Source: Gemmatimonadota bacterium (GTDB lineage Bacteria > Gemmatimonadota > Gemmatimonadetes > Gemmatimonadales > GWC2-71-9). From it: DNA of 64,000 nt. The notes beneath the pieces were generated by a model, which saw nothing but the letters and a program-made list of their open reading frames with translations, had not been told where the DNA came from and did not search any database. A program made the position numbers and the translations under genes. Positions 4,496 through 63,806 of the stretch are shown in pieces. Location of the stretch: NCBI GenBank assembly GCA_022710485.1, contig JAKLGU010000007.1, positions 1 to 64,000 of the forward strand, given 5' to 3'. How positions within the stretch are numbered: the first letter of the stretch is position 1; every line of letters starts with the position of its first letter.

Positions 4496-4545
4496 GCCAA
4501 AAGATAGTTGACCCCGCCTCCGCCGACCCGTACGTTTCCGCACCC
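4496..4545. promoter_or_regulatory. Divergent promoter region between uvrA and the flippase-like gene
   Basis: On the plus strand TTGACC (4508-4513), a 17-bp spacer and TACGTT (4531-4536) form a near-consensus sigma70 promoter, with the -10 box 9 nt before ATG 4546. On the minus strand TATCTT (4506-4501) lies 5 nt before the uvrA ATG; its -35 is weak. Both transcripts would start at or very near the initiation codon, and neither gene has an obvious Shine-Dalgarno sequence. Confidence 0.65.
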
Positions 4546-5646
4546 ATGGCCAACCCACTCTCCCCGAAACTGCTCCTCCGCGGGTTCGAGATCTTCGTCG
4601 GGATCTCCCTCGTGGGGTACGTCGCGGTGCTGTTCTACGGGGACAATCTCCCGGCCTTCTTGCACGGGCTCACCCAGCTGCACTGGGGATGGGTGCTGGT
4701 GGGACTGGCCCTGGCCTCTATGGACTGGATCGGCGGCGGGCTCCGGATCTGGGTGGTGGCGCGGGAGCTCCACCCCAACCCGCCGCTCAAGGGGATGCTG
4801 CTGGCCGGGGGGATGAGCGCCTGGGCTGCCTATCTCACGCCGCTGCAGTCGGGGGCGGCGCCGATGATGATCTACACCATGCGTCGGTACGGGGTCAGCG
4901 TGCCGGTGGGCATGACTACCGCGCTGGTCACCTTCATCGCCACCATCCTCTTCTTCGGCATCGCCGGCCCGCTGGCCATCTTCCTCGGCGCAGGGCAGTC
5001 GCTCGGCTCGAAGGGCGACCTGATGGGGCTCTCCCTCTACGATCTCTTCCTCGGGACGCTCGGCGTATTCGCCACGATCGGGATCCTGCTCGTGGTGGTG
5101 GTCGTCTTCCCGCAGGTGGCCCGGAACGGCATCCATCGCCTGGCGGTCTGGGTGGGCCGCCGGAGCCGCCGCGTCGAGGCCCGCCTGGAGAAGCTGCTCG
5201 TCGGCATCGACGAAGCGCACGTGAGCGTCGCCAAGTTCAACACCCCCCGCGGGTGGCTCTCGCTCTTCTGGGCCACCCTGCTCTCCGGGCCGTCGCACGC
5301 CAACAAGTTGCTGGCCGGGTACGTGGCGCTGCGCGTCATCGGGATCGAGGCCCACTTCGTGGACGTGCTCCTCGTCCAGACGCTCATCGCGTTCCTCCTC
5401 TACTTCGCGCCGACGCCGGGAGCCAGCGGCATCGCCGAGGTCCTGTCCGCCGTCGTGATGACCGCCTACGTCCCGGCGGCGATGACCCCCCTCTACACCC
5501 TCGCCTGGCGCACCATCCTCAGCTACTTCACCATCGCATTCGGCTTCCTGGTGTTCTCGCACTGGGTGCGCCAGGGGATCAAGGGGCTCGAAGAGCTGGG
5601 TGACGTACCCGCGCCGGCGGCCGCCGGCCCGGCCCACTCCGGATGA
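4546..5646 (+). CDS. Lysylphosphatidylglycerol synthase TM-region/UPF0104 flippase-like membrane protein
   Basis: This 366-residue integral membrane protein has about eight hydrophobic segments and matches the architecture of the MprF flippase-domain family (UPF0104/LPG_synthase_TM). The PTPGASGIAEVL segment near residue 290 is the family hallmark. No aminoacyl-transferase domain is attached, so a lipid-translocation role is possible but unproven. Its stop overlaps the start of the ABC exporter (ATGA at 5643-5646), which suggests shared involvement in lipid or envelope transport. Start ATG 4546 is supported by the well-formed promoter immediately upstream. Confidence 0.75.
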   Translation: MANPLSPKLLLRGFEIFVGISLVGYVAVLFYGDNLPAFLHGLTQLHWGWVLVGLALASMDWIGGGLRIWVVARELHPNPPLKGMLLAGGMSAWAAYLTPLQSGAAPMMIYTMRRYGVSVPVGMTTALVTFIATILFFGIAGPLAIFLGAGQSLGSKGDLMGLSLYDLFLGTLGVFATIGILLVVVVVFPQVARNGIHRLAVWVGRRSRRVEARLEKLLVGIDEAHVSVAKFNTPRGWLSLFWATLLSGPSHANKLLAGYVALRVIGIEAHFVDVLLVQTLIAFLLYFAPTPGASGIAEVLSAVVMTAYVPAAMTPLYTLAWRTILSYFTIAFGFLVFSHWVRQGIKGLEELGDVPAPAAAGPAHSG

Positions 5647-28002: not shown

Positions 28003-29802
<1,800 letters not shown>

Positions 29803-29815
29803 GGGCGCAAATATA
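29803..29815 (-). promoter_or_regulatory. Putative leaderless promoter of lepA
   Basis: On the minus strand TATATT (29815-29810) is 7 nt before the lepA ATG. The hexamer is one of the most AT-rich spots in the region; no strong -35 is visible. The predicted transcription start falls at or next to the initiation codon. Confidence 0.55.
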
Positions 29816-29827
29816 ACGGAGCCCGGG

Positions 29828-48048: not shown

Positions 48049-49413
48049 ATGAACAACCGAACGCCCTCCACGGGGCATCGCGCCGCATGGTCTTCTGTTG
48101 CCATGCGATGCCTGCTCCCGATCATCCTCGCCAGCGCGGTCCTGGCGGCGCCCGTTGCTGGACAGGGATCCGATGGCCGGCTGACCCTCGACGCGCTGTA
48201 TCGCTCGGTGGACAGCCTCAGCCCGAGAGTCGCCGGGGCCCGTGCCTCTGCGGTCGCCGCGCTCGCTCGCGTTCCCGGGAACCGACGCCTCCCCGATCCA
48301 CGCCTGCAGTTGGCGACAATGAACCGGCAACTGCCCGGGTTCGACCTACAGCAGCCACTCGGGATGAACCAGATCCAGCTGACCCAGATGTTTCCGATTC
48401 CGGGGACGGGAAAGCTGGGCCTGGCGGAAGACGTGGCCCGGTCGCTCGCCGACGCCGGGCAGGCCCAGGTGGGCGAATCGATTTGGGATCAGCGTGCCCG
48501 GGCGGCCATGGCGTTCTACGACCTGTATCAGGCCGAGGGCACCCTGACGATCATGCGCGAGACGCTCCGGCTCCTGGAGGCGGTGTCGTCCAGCGTGAAT
48601 GGGATGTACGCCGTGGGGGAGGCCAAGCAGGCGGATGTGCTCCGCGCGCAGCTCGAAATCGGCCGGATGACCGGGCAGGTGGCCGACATGGAAGCGATGC
48701 GCCGGACCATGGCCGCACGCCTCAACACGGTGCTCAACCGCCCCCCGGGCGTGCCAACCGGCAGCCCGCAGTTGCCAGTCTTTCCCGACACCCTGCCAGC
48801 GACCGATTCGGTGATCGCCACTGCCCTGGCCTCTCGGGGGATGCTACAGGCCGGGGCGGACCAGATCCGCGCCGCCGCCGCGGCCGAGCAGCTGGCGCGC
48901 CGAGAGATCTGGCCCGACCTGGAAGTCGGCGTGATCTACGGGTGGCAGCCGATGTCGGGGGGTGGCACCGACCAGATGCTGAGCCTCATGGTCGGCGCGT
49001 CGGTCCCGATCTGGGCCGGAAGTCGACAGCTCAAGATGCGGGACGAGACGGCGGCGATGCGCCAGATGGCGGTGGCTGACCTCACCGCGATGCAGAGTGA
49101 CACCAGAGGGCGCGTGGCCGAACTGGTGGCCGAGTTCGAGCGGACCCGCAACCTCCACATCCTCTACGGCCAGACCCTCCTGCCCCAGGCCGAGGCGACG
49201 GCCAGCTCGGCACGCGCCGCCTACCAGGTGGGGGGCGTCGATTTCATGACCTACCTCGACGCCATCATGACCGTGTACGGCTACCGCAGCCAGGTGGTTC
49301 GGCTCGATGCGGAGCAGGGTCAGGCTCTGGCCGAGCTGGAAATGGTCACGGCGAAACCACTGGTCGTCTTGACGCCCGAGCCAGCCCTCACCGCGCCAGG
49401 AGGCGCCCCATGA
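48049..49413 (+). CDS. TolC-family outer-membrane channel of the Cu/Ag efflux system (CusC-like)
   Basis: The 454-residue protein has an export signal (CLLPIILASAVLAAPVAGQ) and two TolC/OEP-type repeats of long helices and strands (QLTQMFPIPGTGKLGLAEDVARS and the second half from about residue 290). No lipobox is seen, unlike many CusC/CzcC proteins. It would form the trimeric outer-membrane exit duct for the following adaptor and RND pump. ATG 48049 is chosen; ATG 48103, immediately before the signal, is an alternative. The stop overlaps the adaptor start (ATGA). Confidence 0.87.
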   Translation: MNNRTPSTGHRAAWSSVAMRCLLPIILASAVLAAPVAGQGSDGRLTLDALYRSVDSLSPRVAGARASAVAALARVPGNRRLPDPRLQLATMNRQLPGFDLQQPLGMNQIQLTQMFPIPGTGKLGLAEDVARSLADAGQAQVGESIWDQRARAAMAFYDLYQAEGTLTIMRETLRLLEAVSSSVNGMYAVGEAKQADVLRAQLEIGRMTGQVADMEAMRRTMAARLNTVLNRPPGVPTGSPQLPVFPDTLPATDSVIATALASRGMLQAGADQIRAAAAAEQLARREIWPDLEVGVIYGWQPMSGGGTDQMLSLMVGASVPIWAGSRQLKMRDETAAMRQMAVADLTAMQSDTRGRVAELVAEFERTRNLHILYGQTLLPQAEATASSARAAYQVGGVDFMTYLDAIMTVYGYRSQVVRLDAEQGQALAELEMVTAKPLVVLTPEPALTAPGGAP

Positions 49414-50717
49414 CAAGTTCCCCGTTCGCCGCCCGCCGGAGTTCGCCCGGGCGGCGGCGTGTGATGGCAGGGTTTGCCGTCGGAGCCCTGCTGGTGACCG
49501 CGGCGACCGTCTACCTGGTCACCCGGGCCCCCACGCCGAGCGCCTCGGAGGCGCACGATCACACGGCCGCGGCCTCCACCGACACCGCGCAGCGTGTCAT
49601 GCTCTCTGCTGAAGACGCTGCCCGCATCGGGGTGACGTTCGCGGTGGCGACGATGGGACCCATGCAGCGGGAAGTTCGCACCGTGGCCCAGGTGTCCTAT
49701 GACGAGACCCGGGTCGCCAGCGTGGCCATCAAGGTCGACGGCTGGGTGGAACAGCTGGATGTGAACACGACGGGACAGGCGGTCCGGAAGGGCGAGCCAC
49801 TGCTGGAGCTGTATTCGCCGATGCTGGTCGCCGCCCAGCAGGAATTGCTGGTCGCGCACCGGCTCGTGGCCGAGGTGAGAACTGGCACTTCCTCGGCCCA
49901 GGAGGGCGCGGCAAATCTTCTCCAGGCGGCCCGTCAACGGCTGGCGTACTGGGATGTTCCCCCGCAGCTGATCGCGGCCGTCGAGCAGAGCGGGCAAGCG
50001 GAGAAGAACGTGCCCTTCCCAAGTCCCGTCAGCGGCATTGTGGTAGAGAAGCCGGTGCTGGTCGGGCAGCGCATCATGGCCGGGGAGGTCCTCTTCAAGA
50101 TTGCCGACCTTAGCCGGGTCTGGCTGGAGGGCGAGGTCTTCGAGCCCGACCTTCCCGCGGCCCGGCCCGGACTGGAAGTAACGGCGGAATTCCCGGCACT
50201 GCCAGGCGAGCAGCGCATCGGCCGAATCAGCTACGTCTATCCAACTCTCGATCCGGAGACCCGCACCGGCCGGATTCGGGTGGAACTCGCCAATCTCGAC
50301 CTCGCCCTCAAGCCGGGCATGTATGCCACCATCCGCTTCCGCGCACCGGTCCGCGAGGCGCTGAGCGTGCCGCGGTCGGCTGTGCTCGCCACCGGCGAGC
50401 GGACCTTTGTCTTCGTGGCAGACTCGGACGGGATGTTCACTCCGCGAAACGTCAGCGTCGGCGCCGCGATGGATGAGCGGATCGAGATCCTGAGCGGGCT
50501 CGCTCCCGGCGAGCGGGTGGTCGCCTCCGGCACCTTCCTCCTGGATGCGGAGTCGAACCTCGGCGCCATCATGGGCGGGATGGGCAACATGCCGGGCATG
50601 GACGTGAAGGCGCCGAGCACGACCGGCGCCGTCCGCGACACCGCCAAGTCGAAGATACCGGGCATGGACATGCCGGCCGAGTCTGCGGGAGGGGCTGATG
50701 CTCACACGAATCATTGA
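49410..50717 (+). CDS. RND efflux periplasmic adaptor with Met/His-rich tail (CusB-like)
   Basis: The 435-residue membrane-fusion protein has an N-terminal anchor helix (GFAVGALLVTAATVYLV), barrel-sandwich/lipoyl parts (VKVDGWVEQLDVNTTGQAVRKGEPLLELYSP and IVVEKPVLVGQRIMAGE), a helical hairpin and a beta-barrel (LEGEVFEPDLP to SYVYPTLDPETRTGRIRVEL). From residue 387 a tail holds GGMGNMPGMD, PGMDMP and ADAHTNH, suggesting soft-metal binding. CusB captures Cu(I)/Ag(I) with N-terminal methionines; here the Met cluster is at the C-terminus. It overlaps the channel gene by 4 bp and the RND gene by 20 bp. Confidence 0.9.
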   Translation: MTSSPFAARRSSPGRRRVMAGFAVGALLVTAATVYLVTRAPTPSASEAHDHTAAASTDTAQRVMLSAEDAARIGVTFAVATMGPMQREVRTVAQVSYDETRVASVAIKVDGWVEQLDVNTTGQAVRKGEPLLELYSPMLVAAQQELLVAHRLVAEVRTGTSSAQEGAANLLQAARQRLAYWDVPPQLIAAVEQSGQAEKNVPFPSPVSGIVVEKPVLVGQRIMAGEVLFKIADLSRVWLEGEVFEPDLPAARPGLEVTAEFPALPGEQRIGRISYVYPTLDPETRTGRIRVELANLDLALKPGMYATIRFRAPVREALSVPRSAVLATGERTFVFVADSDGMFTPRNVSVGAAMDERIEILSGLAPGERVVASGTFLLDAESNLGAIMGGMGNMPGMDVKAPSTTGAVRDTAKSKIPGMDMPAESAGGADAHTNH

Positions 50718-53700
50718 TTGGTCGCTGCGGAACCGCGCGCTCGTCCTGCTGTTCACGGCCGCAGGCATCCTGACCGGTATTTGGGCCGTCCGCGCGACAC
50801 CGCTGGAGGCCCTTCCCGACTTGAGCGACGTGCAGGTCATCGTCCAGGCCGAGTTCAACGAGCAGGCGCCGCGCATCGTCGAGGACCAGGTCACCTATCC
50901 CATCGCCGCCGAGATGCTGAAGGTGCCGGGCGCCCGGGTGGTTCGAGGGTATTCGTTCTTCGGCATCTCGTTCGTGTACGTGATCTTCGAGGACGGCACC
51001 GATCTCTACTGGGCCCGGTCCCGCGTGCTGGAGTACCTCAGCGGGCTGAAGGGCAAGCTCCCGGAGACCGTCACCCCCGTTCTCGGGCCCGACGCCACGG
51101 GCCTGGGCTGGGTCTTCCAGTACAGCCTCGAAGACACGACGGGCCGGAAGTCCCTCGCCGAACTGCGCAGTATCCAGGACTGGCAGCTGCGGTACGCGCT
51201 GACGGCGGTGCCGGGCGTGTCCGAGGTGGCGACCATCGGGGGATTCGAAAGGCAGTACCAGGTGGACCTCGATCCGGCTCGCCTGCTGGCGTACCGGGTG
51301 CCGATCACGGCTGTGATGACCGCCATCCAGAACGCCAATTCGGACGTTGGCGCCATGGTCGTCGAGTTGACGGAGCGCGAGTACATGGTCCGCGGACTCG
51401 GTTACCTCAAGAGTCTGAGCGACATCGAGAATGTCGTGGTGGGCGCCACCCAGAGCGGCACGCCGATCCGGGTGGCGGAGCTCGGGCGGGTCAGCGTCGG
51501 GCCGGCGGTCCGGCGAGGGATCGCGGAGCTGGATGGGCGGGGCGATGCGGTGGGCGGAATCGTCATCATGCGGTACGGGCAGAATGCGCTCACCACGATT
51601 CAGCGCGTCAAGGCCCGGCTGGCCGAGGTGCAGCCGAGTCTCCCGCCAGGTGTCATCGTGCGGCCGGTGTATGACCGCAGCGAGCTCATCGAGCGCGCCA
51701 TCGCGACCCTGCGCGACAAGCTGCTGGAGGAGAGCCTGATCGTCGCGTTGGTGTGCGTCGTCTTCCTGCTCCATGCCCGGTCGGCCCTCGTCGCCATTTT
51801 GACGCTCCCCGTCGGTATCCTGATGGCATTCATCGCCCTTCGGTGGGTAGGTGTCGGGGCCGACATCATGAGCCTTGGCGGCATCGCCATTGCTATCGGA
51901 GCCATGATCGACGCCGCCATCGTGATGATCGAGAACTTGCACAAGCACCTGGAGCGCGCCGTCGATGCGAAGCTGCAGGCCACTGGAGGCCCGGTGGCCG
52001 GAGCGTCGTACGACACTGGTGTCCTCTCGGTCGCGGAACGCTGGAGCTTGGTGGGGGTGTCCGCCAGGGAGGTGGGGCCGGCATTGTTCTTCTCCCTGTT
52101 GATCATCACCGTGTCGTTTATTCCGGTCTTTACCCTGGAGGGCCAGGAGGGGCGGCTCTTCCACCCGCTGGCCTACACCAAGACCTTCGCGATGGCAGCG
52201 GCGAGCCTGCTGGCCGTCTCGCTGGTCCCGGTCACCATGGGCCTGTTGATTCGCGGGCGCCTGTACCGGGAAGCCGCAAACCCGGTCAATCGCGTGCTCA
52301 TCCGGATGTACCGGCCGCTGATCGCGCTTGTGTTGCGCCACCGGTGGGGCGTCGTGACGGCGGCGGGGATGGCGGTGCTTTTGAGCTGGATTCCGTGGAG
52401 GCTGGTGGGAAGCGAGTTCATGCCGCCACTCTACGAGGGCACCATCCTGTACATGCCGACGACCCTGCCCGGGATCAGCGTCGCAAGAGCGAAAGAGTTG
52501 TTGCGGATCCAGGACCGCATCCTCAAGAGCTTCCCGGAGGTCGAGCATGTGTGGGGCAAGGCGGGTCGCGCCAACACGGCCACCGACCCTGCAGGGCTCG
52601 ACATGGTCGAGACGACCATCACGCTCAAGCCGGAATCCGAGTGGCGACCGGGGATGACCTACGAGCGACTGATCGCGGATATGGACTCGGCGGTCCGCCT
52701 CCCGGGAACCACCAATGCGTGGACCATGCCAATCAAGGGGCGCATCGACATGCTGGCCACCGGCATCCGCACGCCGGTCGGCGTCAAGATCTTCGGGCCT
52801 GACCTGGGTGAGCTCGAACGCCTTGGCCGGGAGGTCGAGGACGTTGTCCGACAGGTTCCGGGCACCCGGAGCGCGTTCGCCGAGCGCGCGGTGTCGGGCT
52901 ACTATCTGGACATCGACATCGACCGGGCAGCCGCGGCTCGCCACGGGCTCAACGTGGGCGATGTGCAGACGGTGATCGCGACCGCCGTCGGTGGCATGAC
53001 GGTGACCAGGACCGTGGAGGGGCGGGAACGGTACGGGGTCCGGATCCGATATCCCCAAGAGCTGCGGGACTCCCCGGAGCGACTGGCCTCCGTGCTGATC
53101 CCGGTGAGTCATGGCCTTGGGGGGGCGGATGCGTCGGCGATGGGCGGGGGGATGGGCGTCACCAAGCCCGCCGGGCCTGCTTCGGCAAGCGAGTCGTTCA
53201 TCCCGCTCGGGCAGATTGCCACCATCCGCCAGGAGTCCGGACCAATGGTGGTGCGCACGGAGGGCGCACAGCCTACGGCCTGGGTCTTCGTGGACGTCAG
53301 GGACCGGGACATCGGGAGGTACGTCGCCGATGCACGCAAGGCGGTCGGGCAAGCGGTGGTGCTGCCCGCCGGGTACTCCATCGTTTGGAGTGGCGAGTAC
53401 GAGTACATGCAGCGTGCCGCCGCCAAGCTACAGGTGGTCGTCCCGGCGACGCTGGCCATCATCTTCCTCTTGCTCTACCTCAACTTCGGGAACTTCGGGG
53501 AAACCGCCATGGTGATGCTCTCGCTCCCCTTTGCCCTGGTGGGCGGGCTCTGGTTCATTTGGCTGCTGGGCTACAACTGGTCGGTGGCGGTGGCGATCGG
53601 GTTCGTGGCACTTTCCGGTGTGGCGGCGGAGACCGGGGTGATCATGCTCATCTACCTCGACCATGCCTGGCAGGCGAAGCGAACGGCGGGAGAGCCGCCA

Positions 53701-53943
53701 TCCCTCCGCGACTTGTACGACGCCGTGATGGAAGGTGCCGTGGAACGGGTGCGGCCCAAGTTGATGACCGTCACCGCCATCATGGCCGGCCTGTTGCCGA
53801 TCCTCTGGGGTACGGGCGCCGGTGCCAGCGTCATGAAGCGCATCGCCGCGCCGATGGTCGGTGGTATGATCAGCAGCACCGTGCTGACTCTGCTGGTGAT
53901 TCCGGCGGTTTACTCGTTGTGGAAGGAGCGGGAGGTCTCATGA
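50698..53943 (+). CDS. cusA: Heavy-metal RND pump, Cu(I)/Ag(I) type (CusA-like)
   Basis: The 1081-residue inner-membrane RND protein has the full two-half architecture with twelve helices. The fourth-helix motif GAMIDAAIVMIEN (D405, E412) is the monovalent-metal HME4 form, not the DxGxxVDG form of CzcA. All three CusA metal-binding methionines align: M586 (LLYM-type LYMPTTLPG), M636 (GLDMVETT) and M685 (RIDMLATG), equivalent to E. coli M573, M623 and M672. It would export Cu(I)/Ag(I) through adaptor and channel using proton influx. ATG 50698 has GGGAGGGG just upstream. Confidence 0.95.
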   Translation: MLTRIIDWSLRNRALVLLFTAAGILTGIWAVRATPLEALPDLSDVQVIVQAEFNEQAPRIVEDQVTYPIAAEMLKVPGARVVRGYSFFGISFVYVIFEDGTDLYWARSRVLEYLSGLKGKLPETVTPVLGPDATGLGWVFQYSLEDTTGRKSLAELRSIQDWQLRYALTAVPGVSEVATIGGFERQYQVDLDPARLLAYRVPITAVMTAIQNANSDVGAMVVELTEREYMVRGLGYLKSLSDIENVVVGATQSGTPIRVAELGRVSVGPAVRRGIAELDGRGDAVGGIVIMRYGQNALTTIQRVKARLAEVQPSLPPGVIVRPVYDRSELIERAIATLRDKLLEESLIVALVCVVFLLHARSALVAILTLPVGILMAFIALRWVGVGADIMSLGGIAIAIGAMIDAAIVMIENLHKHLERAVDAKLQATGGPVAGASYDTGVLSVAERWSLVGVSAREVGPALFFSLLIITVSFIPVFTLEGQEGRLFHPLAYTKTFAMAAASLLAVSLVPVTMGLLIRGRLYREAANPVNRVLIRMYRPLIALVLRHRWGVVTAAGMAVLLSWIPWRLVGSEFMPPLYEGTILYMPTTLPGISVARAKELLRIQDRILKSFPEVEHVWGKAGRANTATDPAGLDMVETTITLKPESEWRPGMTYERLIADMDSAVRLPGTTNAWTMPIKGRIDMLATGIRTPVGVKIFGPDLGELERLGREVEDVVRQVPGTRSAFAERAVSGYYLDIDIDRAAAARHGLNVGDVQTVIATAVGGMTVTRTVEGRERYGVRIRYPQELRDSPERLASVLIPVSHGLGGADASAMGGGMGVTKPAGPASASESFIPLGQIATIRQESGPMVVRTEGAQPTAWVFVDVRDRDIGRYVADARKAVGQAVVLPAGYSIVWSGEYEYMQRAAAKLQVVVPATLAIIFLLLYLNFGNFGETAMVMLSLPFALVGGLWFIWLLGYNWSVAVAIGFVALSGVAAETGVIMLIYLDHAWQAKRTAGEPPSLRDLYDAVMEGAVERVRPKLMTVTAIMAGLLPILWGTGAGASVMKRIAAPMVGGMISSTVLTLLVIPAVYSLWKEREVS

Positions 53944-55994
53944 CCGGGCACGGCTCGCACACTGGCCATCGTCACCACGTCGAGGCGCCCGCCAAGGGCC
54001 ATCACGAGCACGAGTCCATGATGGCAGACCCCGCGATGGTCGTCACGATGGAGCGGGATATGCGGCGCCGGTTCTTGGTCGCGCTGGCCTTCACCATTCC
54101 CGTGACGCTGTTGGCCGGTCACATCCCCGGCGTGGGCATGCCGGTGCCGATGCCGCTCGCGAGCTGGCTGCAATTGGGGTTGTCGTTGCCCGTGGTCTGG
54201 TGGGCCGGCTGGATCTTCATCGGCGGGAGCTACCACGCGCTTCGGAATCTCAAGTTGGACATGTCGGTGCTGATCGCCACCGGCGTCCTCGCAGCGTGGC
54301 TCTCGAGCGTGTACCTCACCCTGATCGGCTATCCGACGGCCTACTACGAGGCCGCCTGCATGCTGGTGACCTTCGTGCTGTTCGGGCACTGGATGGAGGT
54401 GAAGTCCCGCCGGGGCACTTCCGACGCGCTGCGCGCCCTGTTCGACCTGGTGCCCCCGATGGCACGGGTGCTCCGGGGCGGCAGGGAGCTCGACCTGCCG
54501 ACGAGCGCGGTCGTGGTGGGCGACCTCCTCCGTCTCCGCCCGGGCGATAAGATCCCGGTGGACGGGGAGCTCACGGAGGGGAGCACCGACGTCGATGAGG
54601 CGCTCGTCACCGGTGAGAGTCGACCAGTCAAGCGCGGACCCCACGATCCGGTCGTCGGAGGTTCCATCAACGTGAGCGGTGCCGTGACCATGCGGGCGAC
54701 CCGGGTCGGCACGGACACGGTCCTTGCCCAGATCGCGGCGCTGGTGGCCGAGGCCCAGAACTCGAAGGCGCCACGGCAGCGACTGGCCGACCGGGCCGCG
54801 GCGGTGCTCGTCGTCGTCGCGGTCGGCGCCGGCATCCTCACCTTTCTTGGGTGGACCGTACTGGCCGACGCCCCGTTCCTGACGGCGTTGACGTTCTCGA
54901 TTTCCGCCGTGGTCATCGCCTGTCCCGATGCGCTGGGCCTGGCCACCCCTACCGCGGTGGCGGTCGGGACAGGCCTCGGCGCCCGGCACAATATCCTGAT
55001 CAAGGACGCCGCGACCCTCGAAGGGCTGAGCCGCATCCAGACCGTCGTGCTGGACAAGACCGGCACCATCACCGAGGGGAGGCCCAGCGTGACGGACATC
55101 CGGACTTCGCCGGGCGTCGATCCGGACATCGCTCTCGCCCGAGCGGCCGCACTCGCGGGGCAGTCCACCCACCCACTCTCGCAGGCCATCGCCGCGGCGG
55201 CGGTCAGCAGGCGGCTCCCGATCCCCGGGCCGGTCACCGGCGTGGCCGACCACCCCGGCCAAGGCGTTGCGGGCCTCGTCGCGGGCGGGCGCACCCTGCT
55301 CGGCAACGCAGCACTGCTGCAGGGTGCGGGCGTTGAGCTTGGCGACCTCGCCACTACCGCGGCGGAGCTGGCCGGACAGGGTCAGTCCGTGACCTTCATT
55401 GCCGGGGACGGGCGGGTGCTCGGCGTCATCGGCATCACCGACGCAATCAGGCCGACCTCGGCCGCGGCGATCCGTGAACTCAAGGCCATGAGCATCCAGC
55501 CCGTGCTCCTGAGTGGTGACCGCCGAGAGACGGCCGAGCAGGTTGCTCATGCCGTCGGCATCGATCGGGTCCTGGCCGAGGTGCGCCCTGAACAGAAGGC
55601 TGAGCGGGTGGCGGCGTTGCAGCGGGAGGGACAATTCGTGGCGATGGTGGGCGATGGCATCAATGACGCGCCCGCGCTGGCACAGGCCGACATCGGCATT
55701 GCCATCGGGGCCGGCACGGACGTGGCGATCGAGGCGGCGCAGGTGGTACTGATGCGTTCGGACCCGGCCGATATTGCACGGGCCATTCGGCTGAGCAAGG
55801 CCACCGTGCGCAAGATGAAACAGAATCTGGTGTGGGCGAGCGTTTACAATGTGCTTGCGATTCCCGTCGCGGCCGGGGCGTTCTATTCGTCCCTGGGCTG
55901 GTCCATTCGGCCGGAAGTGTCGGCCCTCTTGATGTCGGCGTCATCGATCATCGTGGCGGTGAATGCCGTGTCGCTGAGGCGGGCGCAGATCTAG
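53940..55994 (+). CDS. P1B-type heavy-metal ATPase with CPD motif (copper-type)
   Basis: The 684-residue protein has a His-rich N-terminus (HGSHTGHRHH, HHEHES) instead of a CxxC domain, A-domain TGES, P-domain DKTGT (D372), N-domain STHPLS and hinge GDGINDAPAL. The sixth-helix metal motif is CPD (328-330), not the common CPC of Cu(I) pumps or CPH of CopB. Last helices NLVWASVYNVLAIP and MSASSIIVAVNA match Cu(I)-type P1B ATPases. It likely exports copper from cytoplasm to periplasm, feeding the RND pump, whose gene it overlaps (ATGA). Metal identity is inferred from helices and context. Confidence 0.9.
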   Translation: MTGHGSHTGHRHHVEAPAKGHHEHESMMADPAMVVTMERDMRRRFLVALAFTIPVTLLAGHIPGVGMPVPMPLASWLQLGLSLPVVWWAGWIFIGGSYHALRNLKLDMSVLIATGVLAAWLSSVYLTLIGYPTAYYEAACMLVTFVLFGHWMEVKSRRGTSDALRALFDLVPPMARVLRGGRELDLPTSAVVVGDLLRLRPGDKIPVDGELTEGSTDVDEALVTGESRPVKRGPHDPVVGGSINVSGAVTMRATRVGTDTVLAQIAALVAEAQNSKAPRQRLADRAAAVLVVVAVGAGILTFLGWTVLADAPFLTALTFSISAVVIACPDALGLATPTAVAVGTGLGARHNILIKDAATLEGLSRIQTVVLDKTGTITEGRPSVTDIRTSPGVDPDIALARAAALAGQSTHPLSQAIAAAAVSRRLPIPGPVTGVADHPGQGVAGLVAGGRTLLGNAALLQGAGVELGDLATTAAELAGQGQSVTFIAGDGRVLGVIGITDAIRPTSAAAIRELKAMSIQPVLLSGDRRETAEQVAHAVGIDRVLAEVRPEQKAERVAALQREGQFVAMVGDGINDAPALAQADIGIAIGAGTDVAIEAAQVVLMRSDPADIARAIRLSKATVRKMKQNLVWASVYNVLAIPVAAGAFYSSLGWSIRPEVSALLMSASSIIVAVNAVSLRRAQI

Positions 55995-56730: not shown

Positions 56731-57633
56731 CTAGACGACTCCAGCCGGTGCCTGGCCGCAAGTTGCCGCGGCCTCATCCCGTTCAATCTGCAGCGTCGCG
56801 TGTTCGATCCCGAACCGGTCGTGCAGTTCGCCACAGGTCGCGGCGAGGAGTTGATCCTCGTTCGTGATCTCCGGCTTGACCAGGTGCGCCGTCAGCGCCA
56901 CGTGGGTCGTGCTCATCCCCCAGATGTGCAAGTCGTGCACGGCGACGACTCCTGGCAACCCTTCCAGGAAGGTCTTCACTTCCTCGGGTTCGATCCCTTC
57001 CGGCACGGCGTCGAGCGCCAAGTTCACCGAATCCCGCAGCAGGCCCCAGGTGCCGATCGTGATCACGGCCGCAATGGCGAGGCTGACCGCCGGATCCAGC
57101 CAGAGCCAGCCGGTGCTCTGCATCAGCAAGGCAGCCACCGCGACTCCCGCCGAGACGGCAGCGTCCGCGGCCATGTGCGTGAACGCGCCGCGGACGTTGA
57201 GATCCTGCTTCCGGCCCCGCAAGAACAGCAGCGCAGTGCCGGCGTTGATCCCGATGCCGAACAGTGCCACGACGATCACAACCCCGGAGGCGACGGGGAC
57301 CGGCCGCTGCAATCTCCCGACCGCCTCCCACGCAATGGCCCCCACCGCGAGGAGGAGCAAGATGGCGTTCGCGAGCGCGGCCAGAATGGACGTCCGACGA
57401 AATCCGTAGGTCCTGCGTGGGGAAGGGCGTCGCGATCCGAGCGCGGCGGCCCCCCAGGCTAGCAGCAACCCGAGGACGTCGCCGAGGTTGTGGCCAGCAT
57501 CCGCCACCAACGCGAGCGAATGGGCCCGCAGCCCGAACACCGCCTCGACAAGCACGAAGGCCAGATTGAGGCTGACGCCCAGCCCGAACGCCCGGTTCAG
57601 GCTGACGAGGCCGTGGTCGTGATCATGTCCCAT
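56731..57633 (-). CDS. Cation diffusion facilitator (CzcD/ZitB-like zinc exporter)
   Basis: The 300-residue CDF protein starts MGHDHDHG and has six helices; the zinc site is formed by ADAGHNLGD in helix 2 (H and D) and HMAADAAVS in helix 5 (H and D), the usual Zn/Cd-type HD-HD set. A cytoplasmic C-terminal domain (VHDLHIWGMSTTHVALTAHLV) completes the family plan. It would export Zn(II), perhaps also Co or Cd, to the periplasm for the CzcCBA-type pump encoded divergently. Only 18 bp separate its ATG from the next gene's ATG. Confidence 0.94.
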   Translation of the reverse strand: MGHDHDHGLVSLNRAFGLGVSLNLAFVLVEAVFGLRAHSLALVADAGHNLGDVLGLLLAWGAAALGSRRPSPRRTYGFRRTSILAALANAILLLLAVGAIAWEAVGRLQRPVPVASGVVIVVALFGIGINAGTALLFLRGRKQDLNVRGAFTHMAADAAVSAGVAVAALLMQSTGWLWLDPAVSLAIAAVITIGTWGLLRDSVNLALDAVPEGIEPEEVKTFLEGLPGVVAVHDLHIWGMSTTHVALTAHLVKPEITNEDQLLAATCGELHDRFGIEHATLQIERDEAAATCGQAPAGVV

Positions 57634-57651
57634 GGTGTTATATTTGTACCC
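57634..57651. promoter_or_regulatory. 18-bp bidirectional promoter between the CDF gene and the second small exported protein
   Basis: The whole divergent spacer is 18 bp. On the plus strand TATATT (57639-57644) lies 7 nt before ATG 57652. The same AT-rich core read on the minus strand (AATATA) lies 5 nt before ATG 57633. The -35 regions would sit inside the opposite coding sequences; none is strong. Both transcripts must be leaderless or nearly so. Confidence 0.55.
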
Positions 57652-58008
57652 ATGATTGCCGCATTGCGCCACCTGACCCGCACCGTTTGCGCCCTGCTGA
57701 TCGTGATCAGCTTGGGGATCTCGATGGTGGAGACCGCGTTGTGCGACGTCCCGGCGGGCGACGGGTTGGTCTATGGCGTTGATGCCGGCGCGACCCCGAC
57801 GGCCGGTGCGTCGACTGATCCATCGGTTCCGGTGCCGCCCGCGGGCGGTACTGGCTACTGTTGCTGCATTCACACCTTCCCGGATCGCGCATCGGGAAAC
57901 TCCGCCGTGATCGCGGTGATCGCCTCGTTTCCAGTGCTCACCCCACACGCAGCCCAATTCCTCACCAGCCATTCCGCTGCACCGCTCGTTCCACCTCCCA
58001 TAGCCTGA
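57652..58008 (+). CDS. Small exported Cys-rich protein heading the divalent-cation efflux operon
   Basis: The 118-residue product has a hydrophobic export segment (VCALLIVISLGISMVETALC), a Gly/Pro-rich middle, a CCC cluster with His (GYCCCIHTF), further His residues (TPHAAQF, TSHSAA) and the C-terminus PPPIA, shared with the 122-residue protein at 47609. I recognise no named family. Position at the head of a CzcCBA-type operon parallels the first small protein, suggesting a common periplasmic metal-binding, capture or sensing role. Starts upstream of ATG 57652 would read through the CDF gene's N-terminus and were rejected. Confidence 0.6.
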   Translation: MIAALRHLTRTVCALLIVISLGISMVETALCDVPAGDGLVYGVDAGATPTAGASTDPSVPVPPAGGTGYCCCIHTFPDRASGNSAVIAVIASFPVLTPHAAQFLTSHSAAPLVPPPIA

Positions 58009-58009
58009 T
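57994..58009 (+). repeat. Shared 16-nt element, copy 2
   Basis: CCTCCCATAGCCTGAT spans the Pro-Pro-Ile-Ala codons and stop of the second small exported protein, identical to 47963-47978. It is followed by about 150 bp without a gene before the TolC-type start. Confidence 0.65.
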
Positions 58010-58161
58010 TTTCCCCCGGCCCGCGTAGGGGCTGGTCGCACCGCTCCCATCCTGACGGGATCGGCTGCGCCATTGTTCCCATGTCGCCGGGTGCTCGCCC
58101 CTTTTCCGGCGGCAGAGCGACCCAACGACCGAATTCGCCATCGCACCCAAACGAGAGTGCC
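58010..58161 (+). other. Spacer between small exported protein 2 and its TolC-type gene
   Basis: About 150 bp without a convincing gene. It starts with a T-rich run (TTTTCCCCC) directly after the shared 16-nt element and contains GAATTCGCC near its 3' end. A leader RNA or attenuator is possible, but I see no strong hairpin. Confidence 0.3.
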
Positions 58162-59502
58162 ATGACCCGACAGCACATACGAATCCGGCTTACCGCGGCG
58201 CTGGTGATGCTCGGCATCGGCTTCCCGGCGAGCCTGCCGGCGCAGGAAGCAGCCCTTCGAGACTCCCTTGAGTCCGCCCTGCTTCGCCTGGTGTTCTCAC
58301 GGCAGCCCGAATTGGTGGTCCGTCGAGCCGCGACCGCGACCGCGGAAGCACGGCTCCGCGCCGCGGGGCCGGTCGCTCCGCCGGTCCTGGGCGCGGAAAT
58401 CGAGAACATCCCGGACTGGGTGAACCTGGCCGATGCCGGCCAGATCCGGCTCGTGATTGAACGCGAGTTTCTCACCGGGTCGCGCCGAGCGGCGGACCGG
58501 GCCGTGGAGCAGGCGGCGTGGGAGGCGGCTGCCCTGCGGCTCGAGCTGGCGGAGAGAAGCGTGGGGGTGGACGTCCGGGCCAGGCTTGCCAAATGGCTCG
58601 GCTGGCGCGAAATCGCCGCCCGGCTCGCCACCGAGGATGCCATGCTCCAGAACGCGGAGGCCGGACTTCAAGCGCGCTTCGCCACCGGGGAGGCTCGGTA
58701 TGTGGACGTCCTGCGGCTCCGCACCGAACGGCTCCGAGTTCGATCCGACCGCGCCGAAGCCATCCTGACCGCCCAGGCTGTGAGGCGACGACTCGAAGGC
58801 ATGATCACCCCGAACGATTCACTGGTACCGGCGCTGCGGGTACTGCTCGACACCCTTGCTGCGTTGCCGGCGCCGGTGGCGGATCTGGTGCTTCCGCCCG
58901 CCCCCGACCCGGACAGCCTCCTCACGGCTCTCGGCGCGCTCCGCTTCGGCGACCTCCGGGTAGCGAGCGCCCGCGCGCGGGCCGAGGAGACCGCCGCGTC
59001 GCGGAGTGCCTTGCTGGTCGGCGGCATCGGCGTCCAGCGCTTCGGCGATCCGGGCGGCGGATTCACGGTCGGCCCGTCGCTCCGTGCCGCCATCACGCTC
59101 CCGTTTACAGTGGGAGGATCGACGCGGGCCTTGAACCAGGCGGCCGAGCTCGCGGTCGAGGAGGCCCAGGACCAACGGACGGCAGGGGAAAACCAGCTGC
59201 GGACCGCTCTCCTCACCGCACGGGACCGATACGTGGTGGCGCTGGAGCAGGATCGAGTCTACCGCGACGCGATGCTGGTCGGCGCGCGAGAAGAGCGGGA
59301 GGCGGCAGTCGGTGCCTACCGGGCAGGCGAACTCTCCCTGATCGAGCTCCTGGACTTCGAGCGGGCCCTGTCTCGGGCGGAGATTGCCCGGATTCGGGTC
59401 GCCATCGACGTGCAGGTCGCATACGCCCAGCTGATCCTGACGGCGGCGGGCTTCCGCTCGCCGGGTATCACCGTCTTTGATTCCGAGGCTGAGAATGACT
59501 GA
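58162..59502 (+). CDS. TolC-family outer-membrane channel of the CzcCBA-type system
   Basis: The 446-residue protein has an export signal (RLTAALVMLGIGFPASLPAQ) and two OEP helical repeats (REFLTGSRRAADRAVEQAA; second from about residue 260, with GPSLRAAITLPFTVGG and the late AYRAGELSLIELLDFERALSRAE). It would be the outer-membrane duct for the CzcB/CzcA-like pair that follows. ATG 58162 was chosen over ATG 58081 because the signal begins just after it. Its stop overlaps the adaptor start by 8 bp. Confidence 0.87.
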   Translation: MTRQHIRIRLTAALVMLGIGFPASLPAQEAALRDSLESALLRLVFSRQPELVVRRAATATAEARLRAAGPVAPPVLGAEIENIPDWVNLADAGQIRLVIEREFLTGSRRAADRAVEQAAWEAAALRLELAERSVGVDVRARLAKWLGWREIAARLATEDAMLQNAEAGLQARFATGEARYVDVLRLRTERLRVRSDRAEAILTAQAVRRRLEGMITPNDSLVPALRVLLDTLAALPAPVADLVLPPAPDPDSLLTALGALRFGDLRVASARARAEETAASRSALLVGGIGVQRFGDPGGGFTVGPSLRAAITLPFTVGGSTRALNQAAELAVEEAQDQRTAGENQLRTALLTARDRYVVALEQDRVYRDAMLVGAREEREAAVGAYRAGELSLIELLDFERALSRAEIARIRVAIDVQVAYAQLILTAAGFRSPGITVFDSEAEND

Positions 59503-60700
59503 GCATGCCCTCCACATCTGGCCGCGCAGGACCCTCATGCTCCTCGCCGCTGTGGCCCTACTTGTCGCGTGCGGTGGACCTCGGGAGGTACCCGGCGACG
59601 CCGCGGAGCGCGGCTCGCCCTCAGTGGAGGTGGGCGTGGAGCCCGATTCCGTGCCGACTCGCGTCGTCCTGACCGAGGCTGCAGCCGTTTCGGCGGGCAT
59701 CAGGACGGAGGAAGCCCGGCGTGCGGATGGCGCGTCGGAAGGCATGCTCGTCGAGGCGCCGGGCCAGGTCGAGGCCGATCCGTCGCGCACGGCCTTCATT
59801 TCTCCCCGTGCCGCCGGCCGGTTGGAGCGGCTCACCGCGGTCGTGGGTGACCGCGTCGCGGCGGACCAGGTGGTGGCGTGGGTGATGAGCCCCGCTTTCA
59901 CGACGGCGCAGACGGACTACCGGCTGGCCATCCGGCGGGCCACCCTGCTCGCCGACACGCCCGATTCGGCGGGCGCGCAAGCCCTCACGCGAGCCGCCGG
60001 GAGTCGACTCCGGATGTTCGGACTCTCGGACGCCCAACTGGCCCAATTGGCGGGCGGCGGGGAGCCCTCGGCGATGCTCCCGGTCACCGCCCCGTTCGAG
60101 GGGAGCCTGGTGGAGGGCATGACACTGGCCGGAGCGTCCGTCGAGCCGGGCACGCCGATCTTCCGGATCATCGACCTCAGCGAACTGGACGTGGTGGCTG
60201 ACGTTCCGGAGCGGTTCCTGGCTGACCTCCACGTCGGGCAGGGGGCCGTCGTGTCTCTCGCGGCGTACCCGGGCTTGCGCCTCCACGGCCGGGTGGAGCG
60301 CATCAGGGACGAGTTGGACCCCACCACGCGGACCATCGAAGCCATCGTCCACGTGGCGAACCGGGACCGGGCGCTCCGCCCGGGAATGTTCGCCAAGGTG
60401 CAGCTCCAGGTGCGAGCCGGTGGCGCTTCCCGGGCGGCCGTGGCCGAGGCGCCCCTGGTCATCCCGGCGGCGGCCGTCGTGAGCGACGTAGACCAGCGCT
60501 ACGTGTTCGTCGAGACGGCTCCCTACACCTTCGAACGTCGGCTCATCGAACTCGCGAGCAACGACGCCCGCTTCGGTGGCGTAGGTGTCAAGGAGGTCGT
60601 GGTGCACGGAGGAATACGGTCCGGGGAACGCGTCGTGGTCGAAGGGGCCTTCACCCTCAAATCGGAGCTGGCCAAGGCCGGCTTCGCCGAGGAGGAGTGA
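59495..60700 (+). CDS. RND efflux periplasmic adaptor lipoprotein (CzcB-like)
   Basis: The 401-residue membrane-fusion protein has a lipoprotein signal (MLLAAVALLVACGG; Cys about 27), a lipoyl half (FISPRAAGRLERLTAVVGDRVAADQ), a helical hairpin, the second lipoyl half (VTAPFEGSLVEGMTLAGASVEPG) and a beta-barrel with LDPTTRTIEAIVHV. It lacks the Met-rich tail of the first adaptor, in line with divalent-metal use. It overlaps the channel gene and ends 4 bp before the RND gene. Confidence 0.9.
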   Translation: MTEHALHIWPRRTLMLLAAVALLVACGGPREVPGDAAERGSPSVEVGVEPDSVPTRVVLTEAAAVSAGIRTEEARRADGASEGMLVEAPGQVEADPSRTAFISPRAAGRLERLTAVVGDRVAADQVVAWVMSPAFTTAQTDYRLAIRRATLLADTPDSAGAQALTRAAGSRLRMFGLSDAQLAQLAGGGEPSAMLPVTAPFEGSLVEGMTLAGASVEPGTPIFRIIDLSELDVVADVPERFLADLHVGQGAVVSLAAYPGLRLHGRVERIRDELDPTTRTIEAIVHVANRDRALRPGMFAKVQLQVRAGGASRAAVAEAPLVIPAAAVVSDVDQRYVFVETAPYTFERRLIELASNDARFGGVGVKEVVVHGGIRSGERVVVEGAFTLKSELAKAGFAEEE

Positions 60701-60704
60701 GCCC

Positions 60705-63700
60705 ATGATCGAGCGCGTGGTCGCCTGGGCCATCAAGAATGCCGGCGCCGTCTTCCTCGGGGTGCTTCTGGTCGTGGCCGGCGGATCCTGGGCCCTGGTT
60801 CACCTTCGGGTGGACGCTTTTCCCGACCTGACCGACGTCCAGGTCCAGGTGCTCGTCGACGCCCCCGGGCTCTCGCCACTTGAGGTCGAACGCCTGATCT
60901 CGTTTCCCATCGAGGTGGCGCTGAACGGACTGCCTCGGGTGGTGCAGGTGCGGTCGGTGAGCAAGTATGCCTTCGCCGGGGTCACCGTGGTGTTCGAGGA
61001 CGGGGTGGACCTGTATTTCGCCCGGACGCTGGTGTCCGAACGACTGCAAAGCGTGCGTGACGGCCTCCCGCCCGGTGCGGACGCATCACTCGGCCCGCTT
61101 TCGGGCGCCACCAGCGAGATCTACCTCTACACCATCGAGGGCGGCGGTCTCGAGCAGACTCGCCTGCGAACCCTGCAGGACCGGATCGTCCGGCCCCAAC
61201 TCCGGACCGTGCCCGGCGTCACCGAGATCAATACCTTCGGCGGACTGGTGCGGCAGGTCCAGATCGTGGTGCAACCCGACCGGCTGGTGAGCTATGGGCT
61301 CACGCTGCACGACGTGGTGGAGACGGTCCAGGCCAACAACAGCATCGCCGCTGGTGGCTATCTGGAGCACCGGGACGAGCAGTACATCCTGCGCGGGCTG
61401 GGACAGGCGACAGGCCTTGAAGATCTGCGCCACACGGTGATCCGGTCCAACACCCACGGCGTCCCCGTGATGTTGAGTGATGTGGCGGAGGTGACGTTTG
61501 GCGCCCAGGTGCGGCAAGGCGCGGTGTCGCGGGACGGCCGGGGTGAAGTGGTCACCGGGATCGTGATGATGCTCCGGGGCGAGAACAGCCGCGAAGTGGT
61601 TCGGCGAGTTCGGGAACGGGTGGACGCGATCAATGCCGCGCTCCCGGCCGGGGTGGCCGTCACCCCTTATTACGACCAGACGGACCTGGTTGAAGGGACG
61701 CTCCACACGGTCCGGAACAACCTGCTCGTGGGTGGGTTTCTCGTGGTGGCGATCCTGCTCGTCTTCCTGGGAAATATTCGCGCCGCGCTGGTGGTCGCAG
61801 CCACGATTCCGCTCTCCCTGCTGGTCGCCGTGCTGGGTATGCGTTGGTTGGGGTTGTCGGCCAACCTCATGAGCCTTGGGGCGATCGACTTCGGGATGAT
61901 CGTGGACGGGGCTGTCGTGATGATCGAACAGTTCGTGCGGCGGCTGCACGCGGATGAGGAACAAGGGCGCTTCCCGCGTGATCGCGTGAGCTTCCTCTCC
62001 CGACTCACCGATCTGGCGCGGGATGTCGGGCGGCCGATCGCCTTCGGCGTCCTCATCATCCTGCTGGTCTATCTCCCCGTGCTGACGCTGGAGGGGCTTG
62101 AGGGCCGGATGTTCCGGCCTATGGCCATCACCGTGGCGATGGCGCTGTTCGGGAGCCTGGTGCTGGCCCTCGTCTTCGTGCCCGCGGCGGCGACCCTCGT
62201 ATTCCGGCGAGGCGCGCCGGAGTCAAAGTCGGCACTGCGGTTGGCCGCGTGGCTCGACCGGCGCTACACCCCGGTTCTTCGGGCCACCATCGCCAGGCCG
62301 ATCCGAACCGTCGGGATCGCCCTGGTTCTATTCGCCCTGAGCCTGGCGCTCGTGCCGCGGCTGGGCACCGAATTCCTTCCCGAACTGGATGAGGGGTCCA
62401 TCCTGATTGAAGCGGTCCGCGACCCCAGTGTGTCCCTCACCAAGTCGGTGGCGATGCAGGCCGAGATGGAGCGGACGCTCTTGGAATTCCCCGAGGTTAC
62501 CACCGTTGTGAGCCGTGTCGGCCGGCCCGATATCGGCAGCGATCCGATGGGCATCAACCAGGCGGACGTGTTCGTGATGCTCAAGCCGAGGTCCGGGTGG
62601 CGCCCTGGCCTGACCAAGCCGGCGCTCGAGGCCGCGATGGAGGAGCGCCTCGGCGCGCGTGTGGCTGGGATCGCCTTCGGGTTCACCCAACCGGTCGCCA
62701 TGCGCCTGGATGAGCTGATCAGCGGGGTGCGGGCGGACCTGGCCGTGAAGGTATTCGGGGATGACCCAATCGAAAACCGCAGAGTGGCCGAGCAAATCGC
62801 GGCCGTCGTGAACGCGGTGCCGGGTGCCAGCCAGGTACAGATCGAGGCGACCGAGGGCCAGGGTTACCTGAATGTCAGGATGAACCGGGATGCCATGGCG
62901 CGGTTCGGAATCCCGATGCAGGAAGTACAAGAAGCGCTGGAGACGGCAGTCGGAGGGCGGCCGGTGTCGCAGATCATCGAGGGTAGCTTCCCTGTGGACG
63001 TGACGGTGCAGTACCCGCACGAATTGAAGGGCTCACCGGAGGCGATCGGGGAGATCACCATCCCTACTCCCTCCGGGGCACGGATCGCGTTGGCCCAGTT
63101 GGCTGACATCCGGTTGGAGACTGGGCCGGTGCAGGTAAGTCGAGAGCGGGCCCAGCGGCTAGTGGTGGTCCAGGCGAATGTCTCGGGCCGGGACCTCGGC
63201 GGCTTTGTCGCCGACACCCGCGACGCCATTGCGGCCCGGGTGCAGGTACCGGCCGGTGTATTCCTGGTGTACGGTGGCCAATTCGAGAATCAGGAACGCG
63301 CCATGGCGCGACTTAGGCTGGTGCTGCCGATCGCGATCTTGCTGATCGGGGTCCTCCTGTACGCCTCGCTCCGGTCCTGGATGCTCGCCGGGCTGGTCTT
63401 CGTGAATCTCCCGTTCGCCGCCGTGGGTGGCATCGCCGCGCTCTGGCTTCGCGGATTGCACCTGAGCGTGTCCGCCTCGATCGGCTTCATTGCGCTGTTC
63501 GGTGTCGCGGTGCTGAATGGGCTGGTGCTGTTATCGACGATCCAGCGGCAGCGGGAGGAGGGGCTGGACGCCGCCAGCGCGGCGGAATCAGGATCGCGCG
63601 AACGGCTGCGGCCGGTCCTGATGACGGCAATGGTGGCGAGCATCGGCTTCCTCCCGGTTGCGTACTCCACCGGGACTGGAGCCGAAGTCCAGCGCCCGCT

Positions 63701-63806
63701 CGCCACGGTGGTGATTGGAGGACTGGTGACGTCAACGCTGCTTACGCTATTCGTCCTGCCATCGGTGTATGTCTGGTTAAGAAAGCGAACCGTCTCCGAT
63801 TCCTAG
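60705..63806 (+). CDS. czcA: Heavy-metal RND pump, divalent cation type (CzcA-like)
   Basis: The 1033-residue pump has the twelve-helix RND plan. Its fourth-helix motif is DFGMIVDGAVVMIE with D395, D401 and E408 at the spacing of CzcA D402, D408 and E415, which are needed for proton-driven transport. At the positions of the CusA methionines it has SILIEAVRD and GINQADVFV, so it is not a Cu(I) pump. It would move Zn/Co/Cd/Ni-type ions to the channel protein. ATG 60705 has GGAGGAG 8 nt upstream. It ends at the convergent flavoprotein gene with a 4-bp overlap. Confidence 0.94.
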   Translation: MIERVVAWAIKNAGAVFLGVLLVVAGGSWALVHLRVDAFPDLTDVQVQVLVDAPGLSPLEVERLISFPIEVALNGLPRVVQVRSVSKYAFAGVTVVFEDGVDLYFARTLVSERLQSVRDGLPPGADASLGPLSGATSEIYLYTIEGGGLEQTRLRTLQDRIVRPQLRTVPGVTEINTFGGLVRQVQIVVQPDRLVSYGLTLHDVVETVQANNSIAAGGYLEHRDEQYILRGLGQATGLEDLRHTVIRSNTHGVPVMLSDVAEVTFGAQVRQGAVSRDGRGEVVTGIVMMLRGENSREVVRRVRERVDAINAALPAGVAVTPYYDQTDLVEGTLHTVRNNLLVGGFLVVAILLVFLGNIRAALVVAATIPLSLLVAVLGMRWLGLSANLMSLGAIDFGMIVDGAVVMIEQFVRRLHADEEQGRFPRDRVSFLSRLTDLARDVGRPIAFGVLIILLVYLPVLTLEGLEGRMFRPMAITVAMALFGSLVLALVFVPAAATLVFRRGAPESKSALRLAAWLDRRYTPVLRATIARPIRTVGIALVLFALSLALVPRLGTEFLPELDEGSILIEAVRDPSVSLTKSVAMQAEMERTLLEFPEVTTVVSRVGRPDIGSDPMGINQADVFVMLKPRSGWRPGLTKPALEAAMEERLGARVAGIAFGFTQPVAMRLDELISGVRADLAVKVFGDDPIENRRVAEQIAAVVNAVPGASQVQIEATEGQGYLNVRMNRDAMARFGIPMQEVQEALETAVGGRPVSQIIEGSFPVDVTVQYPHELKGSPEAIGEITIPTPSGARIALAQLADIRLETGPVQVSRERAQRLVVVQANVSGRDLGGFVADTRDAIAARVQVPAGVFLVYGGQFENQERAMARLRLVLPIAILLIGVLLYASLRSWMLAGLVFVNLPFAAVGGIAALWLRGLHLSVSASIGFIALFGVAVLNGLVLLSTIQRQREEGLDAASAAESGSRERLRPVLMTAMVASIGFLPVAYSTGTGAEVQRPLATVVIGGLVTSTLLTLFVLPSVYVWLRKRTVSDS

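Follow-up and report, generated by a model that had tools for sequence, protein, structure and literature searches.

In phyla other than the one considered here, leaderless genes are marked by a TAnnnT hexamer near the start codon together with the absence of a Shine-Dalgarno sequence, according to the available text of two reports (PMC3160421; PMC12340547). Divergent genes can also share a single -10 element. For five such promoters in Escherichia coli, the accessible part of one study describes basal transcription as too low for polymerases to compete, and repression of the partner gene as occurring only when one direction is strongly activated (PMC12825309). Metal-related genes, finally, can be preceded by CutF-like proteins, which the portion of the literature at hand describes as small and exported, carrying a Cys motif and a C-terminus rich in Pro (PMC9973294). 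In the same text, CutF is described as sensing copper while it is being exported and as thereby controlling how the following gene is translated; CzcI is counted by the authors among the CutF-like proteins (PMC9973294; mBio 2023).

We analyzed a tight divergent gene pair from a bacterium of the Gemmatimonadota, in which a CDF exporter faces a small Cys-containing protein, given the working label cysP, that heads a czcCBA operon. The window, by which we mean the whole stretch of DNA analyzed, comprises 64,000 nucleotides and forms part of contig C42 in a genome of 2.53 Mb with ~70% G+C. Judged from its sequence, the spacer between the two genes is probably a one-way leaderless promoter for cysP and czcCBA, and a tight divergent gap then need not contain two promoters, provided that leaderless messages are allowed. 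Of greater interest than the spacer itself are leaderless promoters across the order, for which we give sequence evidence as a normal class in this part of the Gemmatimonadota.

Arrangement of the locus

The ATG codons of CDF (57631–57633, minus strand) and cysP (57652–57654, plus strand) are separated by 18 bp, and the divergent arrangement described in an earlier note on this DNA proved exact in both sequence and coordinates (Table 1). The 24-mer made up of the spacer and both ATG codons is single-copy in the genome, and the spacer provides a Shine-Dalgarno sequence for neither gene. Within the window, TTATATTTGnnCCCATG is found twice against an expectation of 0.12, the second copy lying at the start of lepA. 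This gene looks leaderless as well and is located only 25 bp behind its same-strand upstream gene.

CDF, which matches Cation_efflux at 3e-36 and ZT_dimer at 1e-11, likely starts at MGHDHDHG; the alternative is an in-frame GTG 39 bases upstream (57670–57672). The cysP start is backed by relatives that begin similarly (MIAALRH compared with MLRALRR and the like). A second RND-type metal operon, which includes a P-type ATPase, is found just upstream (48319–55994), and its position beside the czc genes makes the region a metal-export island.

Genes were called with a simple codon model in an 864-kb sample (G000), which yielded 806 genes with approximate starts. Gaps of 17 bp or less occur in only three of the 62 divergent pairs called; the cysP–CDF pair stands outside these 62 because cysP was missed by the simple gene caller. 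Elsewhere in the window (4493–4548), two divergent genes 50 bp apart each have a separate leaderless -10, TATCTT at -11 on the minus strand and TACGTT at -15 on the plus strand. Pairs of this kind, with two -10 elements of their own, are the usual compact layout here, from which the 18-bp spacer departs.

Table 1. Features of the divergent locus and the lepA comparison site; scores refer to the own-genome matrix.
Feature	Position	Strand	Remarks
Spacer GGTGTTATATTTGTACCC	57634..57651	.	Between both ATG codons
CDF cation exporter, 300 aa	56731..57633	minus	Pfam PF01545, PF16916; TIGR01297
cysP, small exported-looking Cys protein, 118 aa	57652..58008	plus	First gene of czcCBA operon
czcC-like outer membrane factor	58162..59502	plus	Pfam OEP 3.7e-19
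czcB-like adaptor	59495..60700	plus	Pfam HlyD_D23 2.4e-50
czcA/cusA-like RND pump	60705..63806	plus	TIGR00914, 1158 bits
-10 hexamer TATATT, predicted leaderless promoter of cysP	57639..57644	plus	First base -13; score 11.54
AAATAT, weak candidate for CDF	57640..57645	minus	First base -12 from CDF; score -4.83
Place for plus-strand -35	57615..57622	plus	Inside CDF codons; no recognisable -35
Comparison site TTATATTTGCGCCCATG, lepA start	29800..29816	minus	Copy of TTATATTTGnnCCCATG as in the spacer

Probable leaderless promoters in the genome and the order

In the 864-kb sample, TAnnnT has its first base at -15 to -11 before 18 of the 127 divergent starts. Among same-strand starts, it does so in 19 of 276 where the gap is at least 20 bp and in 8 of 398 where the gap is shorter. 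The background further upstream, per five positions, is 5.8 for the divergent starts and 6.2 for the same-strand starts with a gap of at least 20 bp, and at -10 to -8 the hexamer is found in none of the three groups. A Shine-Dalgarno sequence is present in just one of the 45 genes with TAnnnT at -15 to -11, compared with 307 of the 750 others. Owing to this enrichment and the near-absence of Shine-Dalgarno sequences, we read the class as leaderless promoters. The central positions of the hexamer show a bias: position 3 favours T or G, and position 5 favours T (31 of the 45, against 28% of 338 control hexamers further upstream). Across the order, TTGAC-N18-TAnnnT-N6-ATG is present in 251 of 288 genomes, and its reversed control, counted by hand, in 27 of 288.

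The -10 matrix used for scoring was fitted by expectation-maximisation with both cysP and CDF left out, and is based on ~30 strong sites. Its consensus is TA[T/G]nTT. In 110 of 200 bootstraps the fit converged to a -10; the remaining 90 settled elsewhere, for the most part on the Shine-Dalgarno sequence, and were set aside. The Bacteroidetes-type consensus TAnnTTTG was rejected as a separate motif: TANNTTTG-N5-ATG gave 4 matches versus 0 in the own genome, and the wider TAnnnT class accounts for it.

The spacer read towards cysP

The hexamer TATATT on the plus strand fits the genome's leaderless class. Just 5 of 798 gene starts, and none of 5695 internal ATGs, attain its matrix score, and in the converged bootstraps (110) a median of 1.2% of starts score as high. 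The element lies within the ~10–15 bases before the start at which TAnnnT is placed in leaderless genes, cysP has no Shine-Dalgarno sequence, and TATATT recurs at equal spacing before lepA. It also matches the plain E. coli consensus at five of six positions. The plus strand offers at most three of six matches to TTGACA at spacings of 16–18, and a promoter scan of 3.7 kb around the spacer returned no sigma-70-type site.

We infer that transcription of cysP starts at the A of its ATG, and the direction and strength of the promoter are inferred likewise. A sigma-70-type polymerase would recognise TATATT on the plus strand and begin transcription at or next to that A (position 57652), so that the czc operon mRNA would carry no 5′ leader and a ribosome could start directly on the 5′ AUG. 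CDF would by chance begin just upstream of the cysP promoter, and could be transcribed from a start inside cysP or, weakly, from the core read backwards.

Of the 15 other loci found, 12 have a relative of cysP in front of czcC (L176–L183, L185, L187–L189; no recognised relative at L184, L186 and L190), giving 13 aligned rows including the window, and the family evolves fast. A leaderless-type hexamer precedes only 2 of these 12 relatives, which counts against the one-way reading; the two in question, L176 (TATCAT at -13) and L177 (TAGGTT at -16), are the best czcC matches among the relatives' loci.

The spacer read towards CDF

On the minus strand, AAATAT is the only hexamer with A2 and T6 at a leaderless distance from CDF, and the best-scoring hexamer at -15 to -11, AATATA, reaches -0.25. 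Of the 400 training starts, 82 reach this value; the corresponding counts are 130 among 798 starts and 624 among 5695 internal ATGs. Among the converged bootstraps (110), 10–31% of starts match the minus score (median 17.9%), and the score itself is at least 3 in 17 of the 110. Measured against the plain E. coli consensus, the contrast between the strands is milder than with the own-genome matrix, with four of six TATAAT matches on the minus strand at -15, albeit without T6, and at least four matches in 36 of 400 starts. A minus-strand -35 has at most two of six matches.

The AT core was proposed in the earlier note as a -10 in both directions, which holds towards cysP, where it scores 11.54 at leaderless distance, and gives way to background towards CDF. 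The companion claim, that both -35 regions fall inside the opposite gene, is right as to the would-be positions, although no -35-like hexamer is found in either direction. Nor does it follow that the spacer must hold both promoters, since the CDF transcript could start inside cysP. The search for a separate CDF promoter gave nothing convincing. Within 100 nt upstream, no hexamer scores above 2.62, a value that exceeds those of 17 of 101 divergent genes lacking a leaderless -10 and of 447 of 794 coding controls. Further out, a hexamer at -269 scores 7.22, which is ordinary for a 400-nt coding stretch (75th percentile 7.19). Because CDF has no Shine-Dalgarno sequence and no convincing separate promoter, the core stays a candidate start for it; the lack of a Shine-Dalgarno sequence is also true of 443 of 750 non-leaderless genes.

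The position of CDF could be an accident, the gene having moved beside a ready-made cysP promoter while its own promoter is poor or the gene barely expressed. We consider this possible, if short of probable, and it is compatible with a one-way promoter rather than opposed to it. CDF is found opposite cysP in none of the 12 cysP relatives and, as judged by eye, all 13 related CDF loci in the phylum lack a cysP-like gene opposite CDF. Of these 13 loci, 12 are distinct, and six of the 12 (L011, L012, L026, L114, L117 and L118) have a leaderless-type hexamer of their own, scoring at least 6.8 at some candidate start, which CDF here does not have. Against such a junction speaks the intact reading frame of CDF, with its conserved domains.

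It is unlikely that the core at 57639–57645 instead acts as overlapping -10s on both strands, with both messages leaderless from the two ATGs, and its minimal form, a single 7-bp core from which both messages would begin at their AUGs, is if anything more doubtful. The geometry would suit a bidirectional promoter, for which spacings of ~10, 18 or 23 bp between the starts are expected, only if both messages begin at the ATGs: these are 19 positions apart, separated by 18 bp, and the available text gives 18 bp as the most frequent spacing of divergent starts in bidirectional promoters of E. coli (PMC12825309). The missing Shine-Dalgarno sequences of both genes, the A2 and T6 of the reverse hexamer at -12 and the four of six E. 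coli consensus matches at -15 point the same way. However, a usable -10 was found in the core on the plus strand (11.54) and not on the minus strand (-0.25, a background score). Furthermore, the genome's TA[T/G]nTT, in which T replaces A at position 5, is much less symmetric than TATAAT, and for this reason shared -10 elements should be rarer in this group. As a class, perfect symmetric cores of the form CAT-N5-TANNNTA-N6-ATG do not exceed the reversed control in the order (67 of 288 genomes against ~86 of 288, counted by hand) or in the own genome (5 against 3+5 with one mismatch). One perfect symmetric CAT/ATG core, CATGAGCGTAAATTAATCCGCATG, is found in four genomes of one genus (G060, G093, G102 and G236) and would be a better candidate for a doubly leaderless bidirectional promoter than the window spacer. 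If such a promoter were real, the 18 bp separating the start codons would themselves be the promoter geometry, leaving no untranslated or regulatory DNA between the genes.

Opposite cysP in the relatives, the genes tested belong to the ArsR family in six of six cases (HTH_5, E 2e-16 to 3e-18). An ArsR/CadC-like repressor faces the Cys gene in L178, L180, L181, L183, L185 and L187 and is missing from the window; these repressors carry a CEVxCVDxxKV-like motif before the HTH. No CadC-like repressor was found near the spacer, the four own-genome matches all lying on other contigs. A Zur-like half site, TGTTATA, was also considered. A regulated divergent switch, in which polymerase occupancy blocks the other direction or the spacer is a binding site for a metal regulator, is very unlikely. 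In its favour, the repressors in relatives suggest that the ancestral region was probably metal-regulated, and 7 ArsR-family matches were found in the own genome. Against it, the spacer has no regulator gene next to it (the closest ArsR match of this contig is at C42:80251), and the accessible text on the five E. coli promoters reports little measurable competition at basal activity (PMC12825309). Mutual exclusion of the two genes, expected in the earlier note, is unsupported from geometry alone given such low basal transcription (PMC12825309), and is conditional at best.

The cysP protein

The cysP family, which was found via czcC, consists of small Cys/His proteins ahead of czcC in the order, mostly with an HxCHCxHxH motif and a C-terminal RPPxA. 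A six-member alignment has ten invariant columns, among them C70, C72, H74, P115, P116 and A118. With its N-terminal signal (assigned by eye), Cys motif, Pro-rich C-terminus and place upstream of metal genes, cysP has the layout of CutF-like proteins and, placed in front of czcCBA, resembles a leader of the CutF type. By analogy, it may be a nascent-chain metal sensor. A search of 61 genomes with the protein itself as query gave only weak matches outside the own genome, a PDB search with the cysP profile returned nothing, and cysP has no Pfam match. DUF2946 (PF11162) is matched by only two of six family members, at best with E 0.014 and 16.6 bits, below the cut-off of 23.7. A stem-loop hiding the ribosome site between cysP and czcC was sought as well, and no significant excess of structure was found in 57960–58185 (z = -1.28; 18 of 200 shuffles equally stable).

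Comparison with described systems

The leaderless class described here resembles that in the available text of Zheng 2011 (PMC3160421) and Zhong 2025 (PMC12340547, Deinococcus-Thermus), in that TAnnnT lies ~12 bases before the start, the Shine-Dalgarno sequence is absent and the genomes are high in G+C. It differs from the leaderless genes of those reports in the biased middle of the hexamer, where position 3 tends to be T or G and position 5 tends to be T. In the portions of the literature covered by our search, we found no account of leaderless promoters in Gemmatimonadota.

With the promoters of Warman et al. 2026 (PMC12825309), as far as the available text describes them, the spacer shares divergent, functionally related genes, ~18 bp between possible starts and a central AT core. 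Unlike in those promoters, the reverse -10 here misfits the local consensus; furthermore, both transcripts have been demonstrated in the five E. coli cases, whereas the spacer is known from its sequence.

Although cysP falls below the DUF2946 cut-off, unlike the CutF/DUF2946 leaders, it resembles these proteins and CzcI, as portrayed in the accessible part of PMC9973294, in its N-terminal hydrophobic segment, its Cys motif, its Pro-rich C-terminus and the metal-efflux genes downstream.
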